Below are positions 27,706 through 56,951 of a stretch of 64,000 bases of DNA, piece by piece (the first letter of the stretch is position 1; each line of letters opens with the position of its first letter). A program made the translations under genes and the position numbers. The DNA is from an uncultured Oscillospiraceae bacterium (GTDB taxonomy: Bacteria; Bacillota; Clostridia; Oscillospirales; Oscillospiraceae). Location of the stretch: assembly GCA_947625355.1 (NCBI GenBank), contig CANQOA010000001.1:1-64000 (forward strand), given 5' to 3'. A model generated the notes under the pieces. That model was not told the origin of the DNA. It was given only the letters and a program-made list of their open reading frames with translations, and made no database searches.

Positions 27706-27742
27706 GCTTGACGGACGGACCGCCATCCTTATAAAATAGCGA

Positions 27743-27770
27743 GGGCCCTGGGTATCCCAGGGCCCCATTT
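27743..27770 (+). terminator. Terminator of the first ABC operon
   Basis: GGGCCCTGGG (27743-27752) with CCCAGGGCCC (27756-27765), TAT loop, then CATTTATT. Confidence 0.85.
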
Positions 27771-27776
27771 ATTAAA

Positions 27777-27984
27777 TGACGCCGGTACTTTTGCAGAGCA
27801 AAAGTTCTCGCTGCGCTCGCCGCGCAAGCGCGGGGCGTCAGTTCCCATTCGAGGCGGGGCTCCCGCCCCCCTCGAGCATTTAATGACGCCGGTACTTTTG
27901 CGGAGCAAAAGTCCTCGCTGTGCTCGCCGCGCAAGCGCGGGGCGTCAGTTCCCATTCGAGGCGGGGCTCCCGCCCCCCTCGAGC
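27777..27984. repeat. Two tandem copies of a 107-bp multi-hairpin unit
   Basis: Copies at 27777-27877 and 27884-27984 differ at only about three bases. Each has an outer pair TGACGCC/GGCGTCA enclosing ACTTTTGC/GCAAAAGT and CGCGCAAGCGCG, then a separate hairpin built on CGAGGCGGG/CCCCCCTCG, so one unit can fold as a branched structure. A pyrimidine-rich tract of about 35 nt follows before the next gene. No coding frame fits. Confidence 0.9.
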
Positions 27985-28042
27985 TCCCCCCTATCTTCCT
28001 ATCTTCATTTCCTCTCTTTGATAACTGTGAGGCTTGTATCCT

Positions 28043-55867: not shown

Positions 55868-55970
55868 GCGCGGCGCGCCGTTGATAGAAAAAGCAAAAGC
55901 AGGCCGGGATCTATCAGCCCCTTCGATTGGACAGAGCTCCTCCGGCGGATTATAATAATGACTATCTGAT

Positions 55971-56127
55971 GGCGAAACGCCGTAAGGCGTTGCGCCGAGC
56001 CGCTTTGCGGCTCAGCAAACAGCGGCGCTGTTTGCCAGACACTCATTGCAATGAACATTGCGCAAATGATCCTTGGATCATTTGCTGCCAAACGGATCGT
56101 TTGGCGGCGAAAACTTTCGTTTTCGCC
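55971..56127. repeat. Array of seven contiguous hairpins
   Basis: Seven inverted repeats are packed almost without gaps: 55971-55996 (11-nt arms, one mismatch), 55997-56013 (7), 56015-56035 (9), 56048-56061 (6), 56062-56085 (11, TT loop), 56087-56105 (8) and 56106-56127 (9). All but the first are perfect. A small frame crosses the block, but its composition is explained by the palindromes. The activase gene starts 57 bp after the array. Confidence 0.93.
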
Positions 56128-56183
56128 TTGCGATGATCATTATGAAATATCGGGAACACAAACGACGGAAGTGAGGCGGCCCT

Positions 56184-56951
56184 ATGACCTACATCGGCAT
56201 CGACATCGGCTCCACCTGCTCCAAGACGGCGGTCCTGAACGGCAGCGGGGAGACGGAGGGCCTCTTCGTGCTGCCCACGGGCTGGAGCAGCCTGCAGGCG
56301 CTGGAGGACATCCGCCGGGAGCTGGCCCGCCGGGGCGTGGACCCGGACGGAGCGGAATGCGTCTCCACCGGCTATGGGCGCAAGGCGGTGCCCTTCGCCG
56401 CCCGGCAGGTGACGGAGATCAGCTGCCACGCCAAGGGGGCTGCGGCGCTGTTCTCCCATGGGGCGATCAACGTCATCGACGTGGGCGGCCAGGACACCAA
56501 GGTCATCAGCTGCCGGGACGGCCGGGTGGAGGAGTTCTATATGAACGACAAGTGCTCCGCCGGCACGGGCAAGTTCGTGGAGATCATGGCCAACCGCCTG
56601 AACGTGCCCATCGGGCAGTTGGACGAGCTGGCCCGGGCGCGGACCGAGCAGATCGAGATCAGCTCCCTCTGCACCGTGTTCGCCGAGACGGAGATCGTGG
56701 CCCTGGCGGGGCAGGGCGTGGCCCGGGAGAACATCGCCTGGGGCGTGCTCAACTCCGTGGCGAAGAAGGTGGCCCAGGAATACGCCAAGCTGCGGGACGC
56801 CGACCGGCCGGTCTATCTGACCGGCGGGCTGTGCCAGTGCGGGTATTTCCTGGAGCTGGTTGGCCAGCGGCTGGGCCGGCCCATAGGCTCCGTACCGGAG
56901 GCGCGTTATGCCGGCGCCCTGGGCGCCGCCCTTCTGGCGGCGGGAAGATGA
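56184..56951 (+). CDS. ATP-dependent activase of the 2-hydroxyacyl-CoA dehydratase/DCCP family
   Basis: A 255-residue ASKHA ATPase (HgdC/BadF-type). MTYIGIDIGSTCSKTAV and NVIDVGGQDTKVI form the nucleotide site; Cys124 in NDKCSAGTGKF and Cys163 in SSLCTVFAETE bind the 4Fe-4S cluster shared by the dimer. Such activases inject one very low-potential electron per ATP hydrolysis into a partner iron-sulfur enzyme. The likely partner is the convergent gene at 56994-58145. The gene is monocistronic and ends in a terminator shared with its partner. Confidence 0.93.
   Translation: MTYIGIDIGSTCSKTAVLNGSGETEGLFVLPTGWSSLQALEDIRRELARRGVDPDGAECVSTGYGRKAVPFAARQVTEISCHAKGAAALFSHGAINVIDVGGQDTKVISCRDGRVEEFYMNDKCSAGTGKFVEIMANRLNVPIGQLDELARARTEQIEISSLCTVFAETEIVALAGQGVARENIAWGVLNSVAKKVAQEYAKLRDADRPVYLTGGLCQCGYFLELVGQRLGRPIGSVPEARYAGALGAALLAAGR

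Follow-up and report, generated by a model that had tools for sequence, protein, structure and literature searches.

What kind of sequence is a closely packed run of hairpins upstream of an activase gene? Such an array lies in the window, i.e. the whole 64 000-nt stretch of DNA from an uncultured Oscillospiraceae bacterium that was analysed, and a first-pass annotation had counted seven hairpins in 157 bp (55971–56127). Perfect arms were found at 55976–55991, 55997–56013, 56015–56035, 56043–56054, 56062–56085, 56087–56105 and 56106–56127. Arms of 6 bp or more hold 114 nt of the region, compared with 4.6 ± 7.4 nt (maximum 42) in 1000 shuffles of the intergenic region, which places the array far above chance and makes it the densest hairpin cluster of the window. 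Folding z-scores were −7.8 for the + strand and −8.9 for the − strand, and none of 200 shuffles folded equally well. The count itself drops to six true hairpins: the supposed seventh, TCATTGCAATGA (56043–56054), is loopless, and folds and covariation better describe it as the place where two closing stems meet. The hairpins lie where they had been placed, but the element is longer: with its closing stems it comprises 185 bases (55957–56141) with an AT dinucleotide on either side (Table 1). We agree with the annotation that the array is neither a terminator nor a CRISPR or tandem repeat: the hairpins are not followed by a proper T tract and gave a single weak terminator match, and each unit is a different palindrome. 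An Rfam scan of the window yielded a tRNA end only and no match for the element. The second densest hairpin cluster of the window, at 27740–27996, combines a terminator-like hairpin with two hairpin-rich units of ~105 bp that follow it in tandem (AATGACGCCGGTACTTTTGC...CCCCTCGAG).

Table 1. Features of the element and its surroundings (window positions)
Feature	Position	Strand	Basis
Promoter-like site TGGACA-17-TATAAT, final two bases (55955–55956) being the AT target	55928–55956	+	Consensus match 11/12
Left AT of 2-bp target duplication	55955–55956	.	Ends of 64 copies; empty site of a relative's insertion
Whole mobile element	55957–56141	+	Copies in own genome and relatives, common end points, alignment
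Unit A closing stem, left arm (AATGA, mismatch, TATCTG); left terminal inverted repeat	55957–55968	+	Fold; covariation helix 1
Hairpin H1, 11 bp, tetraloop	55971–55996	+	Arm search; covariation helix 2
Hairpin H2, 7 bp	55997–56013	+	Arm search; covariation helix 3
Hairpin H3, 9–10 bp	56015–56035	+	Arm search; covariation helices 4, 5
Unit A closing stem, right arm	56036–56047	+	Fold; covariation
2-bp spacer GC between units, same length as target duplication	56048–56049	.	Alignment; AT in copy L208 from another genus
Unit B closing stem, left arm (AATGA, mismatch, CATTGC)	56050–56061	+	Fold; covariation helix 6
Hairpin H5, 11 bp	56062–56085	+	Arm search; covariation helix 7
Hairpin H6, 8–9 bp, loop in both orientations among copies	56087–56105	+	Arm search, covariation, loop test
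Hairpin H7, 9 bp (about 13 bp at most in relatives)	56106–56127	+	Arm search, alignment, covariation
Unit B closing stem, right arm (GCGATG, mismatch, TCATT); right terminal inverted repeat	56130–56141	+	Inverted repeat; covariation
Right AT of 2-bp target duplication	56142–56143	.	Ends of 64 copies; empty site
BadF/BadG-type 2-hydroxyacyl-CoA dehydratase activase; downstream host gene outside the element	56184–56951	+	PF01869, 3.4e-51

The element consists of two inverted units

The element is built from two inverted units of ~92 nt joined by a 2-bp spacer, and in each unit a closing stem surrounds three hairpins. Of the closing-stem pairs, 5 (AATGA/TCATT) hardly vary and 6 do vary, the two sets being separated by a single mismatch. 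Aligning unit B with the reverse complement of unit A gave a score of 35, whereas random hairpins given identical ends scored 11.1 ± 5.5, with 2 in 1000 as high; the units thus appear to be distantly homologous in inverted orientation, the homology being modest. Ordinary duplication had been held not to explain the array, and this is true of the single hairpins but not of the two halves, which resemble an old inverted duplication. The spacer is mostly GC and reads AT in the L208 copy. The simplest origin of the double unit would be that a ~92-nt unit inserted in opposite orientation next to an existing one, at the AT of the latter's target duplication, and left the 2-bp spacer behind.

Copies share sharp ends and occupy unrelated sites

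The annotation had guessed at a transposon-like palindromic repeat, to be given up should other copies and covariation be lacking, and this guess proved right: many copies were found and covariation is strong. The window's own genome contains a copy of 98% identity that matches exactly 55955–56143, as well as three shorter derivatives. Matches were obtained in 25 of 99 relatives, mostly within the genus, and most genomes of the genus carry ~190-bp relatives of the element at unrelated sites. A set of 64 near full-length copies shows sharp common ends (ATAATGATYATC...GATGATCATTAT) with the terminal inverted repeats AATGAnnATC...GATnnTCATT, the flanks being unrelated except in two orthologous pairs. 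These orthologous insertions were seen in two species pairs (L023 and L066; L019 and L022). Some copies are reduced to a solo A or a solo B unit, and others carry internal deletions. No conserved open frame is apparent in an alignment of 77 copies of this short element (185-bp core).

With a covariance model, 12 of 250 family genomes and 12 of 394 order genomes proved to contain the element, with a patchy distribution over nine families of the order including the window's own. A pattern scan of GTDB contigs mainly returned rabbit-gut Oscillospiraceae bins and rumen Ruminococcaceae/Clostridiales bins, and the central motif had no exact counterpart in viral contigs. Hits in Spirochaetes, Bacillus and Sphingobacteriia were discarded as chance, with neither fold nor model match. 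One copy with most of the fold (L127) lies on a contig binned as Rikenella from rabbit gut; this contig is probably mis-binned, and a transfer between phyla is possible. Genome G260 contains at least 28 nearly identical copies resulting from a recent burst, and many of its contigs break inside copies. Because ~20 contig ends fall in the element (L189–L198, L214–L228), this assembly is limited by the repeat burst itself.

Insertion occurs at an AT dinucleotide

The L042 copy splits a flavin-reductase-like gene, and the site is empty in 10 of 11 relatives: ACCATGACC-AT-C-GGCTGG in the empty form versus ACCATGACC-AT[element]AT-TGGCTGG in the filled form. The codons of the empty site read ACC-ATC-GGC or ACC-ATC-AG(C/A) in 10 of 11 relatives and GTC in the eleventh, compared with ACC-AT[element]AT-TGGC at the filled site. 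The element thus inserts at AT and ends up with AT on either side; one AT has become AT[element]AT, and insertion therefore duplicates 2 bp, a duplication that in sequence would look identical to an insertion between A and T. The empty site was compared directly at this one insertion, and two others (L051, L054) were read from the codon frame. For a copy in G260 (L190), joining the flanks and comparing them with genome G200 revealed no intact empty site. Position −2 of the flanks is preferentially Y and position +2 preferentially R, which gives the context Y-N-AT-N-R. A TA target, the phase of IS630 elements, was dropped since the empty site shows AT.

Base pairing is kept while hairpin sequences change

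In the 77-copy alignment 95.6% of cells are paired, compared with 31–47% when partners were slid. Changes on both sides were found in 38 of 78 pairs, with 181 such cells versus 25.8 in shuffled data and contributions from all nine helices; because the aligned copies are related, these counts, like the loop statistics below, do not represent independent events. Copies in G070, G307 and G244 and the L177 copy keep the same hairpin order with largely different stems, and in distant families entire hairpins have been exchanged with the layout intact. Base pairing is kept while the hairpin sequence changes, and this also holds after insertion, as one H1 pair differs on both sides between the orthologous copies L023 and L066 (C-G versus T-A).

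Is the pairing maintained in DNA or in RNA? On the + strand we counted 64–89 G·U cells versus 112–116 A·C cells (64 versus 112 without one outlying pair), and by pairs 38 G·U versus 39 A·C, so that G·U is not favoured on this strand. The H6 loops include 7 reverse-complement pairs versus 2.5 expected (p 0.0002), and 5 minority loops versus 0.66 expected were found for H5. Template switching between inverted repeats is known to equalise arms and to invert loops (PMC8604942). Since G·U does not exceed A·C and hairpin loops flip, pairing looks maintained at the DNA level; we favour this reading, while RNA of the minus strand may still play a role. The hairpins would be kept in DNA through folding of single-stranded or extruded DNA, with template switching partly equalising the arms and flipping the loops, and the folded form may be required for mobility.

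Search for a mobilising enzyme

A transposase or recombinase encoded elsewhere would move the element in trans via its ends. A search for an autonomous element with the terminal inverted repeat pattern in 35 genomes gave ~105 places, and those inspected were copies or remnants; two (L097, L109) look like chance matches. Nine further genomes yielded no autonomous partner with the same ends, two hits (L209, L210) being end-only remnants or chance. The IS630-type domain DDE_3 (PF13358) was absent from all 18 genomes searched; together with the AT rather than TA target this does not fit a RUP-like MITE mobilised by IS630/Tc1 enzymes. The domains rve (PF00665), Y1 (PF01797) and DDE_Tnp_1 (PF01609) do not track the element, and the G260 bin (~86% complete) contains no transposase with any of these domains or DDE_3. 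As bins are incomplete, the enzyme may be unbinned.

DISCUSSION

We consider the sequence very probably to be one copy of a miniature non-autonomous transposable element, of a new MITE-like family in Oscillospiraceae and related gut Clostridia that has an unusual, fixed fold. It is short and gene-free, has sharp ends with terminal inverted repeats and a target duplication of fixed length at AT, and occurs in many dispersed copies at unrelated sites, some of them recent, with an expansion in at least one species. A family of structured non-coding RNA genes that had spread by ordinary duplication without a transposon would account for the stable fold, the strong covariation and the H1 loops, which are mostly of GNRA type on the + strand. 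However, because of the empty site, with its single AT in place of AT at both ends, this explanation is extremely unlikely, and the inverted-repeat ends, the burst of near-identical copies and insertions within genes also argue against it. A discrete structured RNA, an RNase target or a nucleoid target, as the annotation had suggested, is disfavoured as primary identity by the missing Rfam match and the lack of a G·U preference, which count against the RNA gene family too. In a REPIN-like element, a hairpin-recognising Y1 transposase (IS200/IS605, RAYT) would mobilise an inverted palindromic doublet in single-stranded form. The inverted arrangement, compensatory changes and DNA folding described for REPINs (PMC3116915) resemble those seen here, and the same sequence would result if the element had entered between A and T with no target duplication. 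We nevertheless regard this model as very unlikely: Y1_Tnp is absent from G260, G200, G157, G038, G307 and the window's own genome (G000), and the symmetric target Y-N-AT-N-R suggests a two-sided cut.

The element could also be mobile and yet domesticated as an RNA leader. Selection would then act on the hairpins as RNA, mainly that of the minus strand, and the mRNA of the gene at the left end would be protected or regulated by them. The left end points at a gene start in 48–55 copies versus 16, compared with 25–28 versus 29–34 for the right end (Fisher 0.0002–0.002), counts that rely on heuristic gene calls. Between tandem gene pairs the minus strand is sense in 21–24 cases versus 5–6, the median distance to the start codon is ~39 nt, the excess of A·C over G·U cells on the + strand corresponds to G·U on the minus strand, and the orthologous L023/L066 insertions have kept their pairing. 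Yet G·U and A·C are equal by number of pairs, loop inversion is an event at the DNA level, the window's own copy is oriented oppositely and we noticed no common gene function at the sites, so that selection as an RNA leader seems improbable to us. On the minus strand, in the outward direction, the left end contains GATAAT, TATAAT or TGTAAT in different genera, a −10-like box that could explain the tendency to face gene starts; some right ends likewise read GATAAT.

For the miniature transposable element, one may speculate that the mobilising enzyme recognises the paired cloverleaf fold and not the sequence, i.e. that a transposase or recombinase acts on folded single-stranded or extruded DNA and inserts it at AT. 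We hold this to be unlikely; it would explain why whole hairpins are replaced across families with number, order and closing stems kept, and if true it would point to a hitherto undescribed mobilising enzyme.

At the activase locus the target AT is formed by the last two bases of a TATAAT box, and the activase mRNA therefore probably begins with a hairpin leader provided by the element, judging from the promoter consensus match. Insertion at this position would spare the activase promoter, and transcription would begin within the element, making the hairpin array the mRNA leader.

These results add a widespread mobile family of gut Clostridia that is described neither in Rfam nor in the literature we found. 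Host mRNAs acquire large and stable leaders from it, and the mRNA of the 2-hydroxyacyl-CoA dehydratase activase is possibly one of them. With many independent insertions, hypervariable flipping loops and pairing kept across families, it offers a natural test case for the maintenance of stems at the DNA level.

Among known systems, bacterial MITEs such as ERIC, Correia and RUP are also short, geneless, intergenic and base-paired, with inverted-repeat ends and a short target duplication (PMC10969869, PMC3049150). In contrast to these, the element has a duplicated AT, two inverted cloverleaf units and freely changing hairpin sequences, its GC content follows the host instead of being AT-rich, and we found no related insertion sequence. 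REPINs are likewise inverted palindromic doublets with compensatory changes that are mobile in trans (PMC3116915), whereas the element has three hairpins per unit, a target duplication, no conserved REP head and several carriers without Y1. The BOX elements of pneumococcus are similarly modular and tightly folded with their ends paired together (PMC3049150); they are composed of boxA, boxB and boxC modules, whereas the element, which differs in sequence and host, consists of two fixed inverted units and also occurs as solo units and internal deletions.
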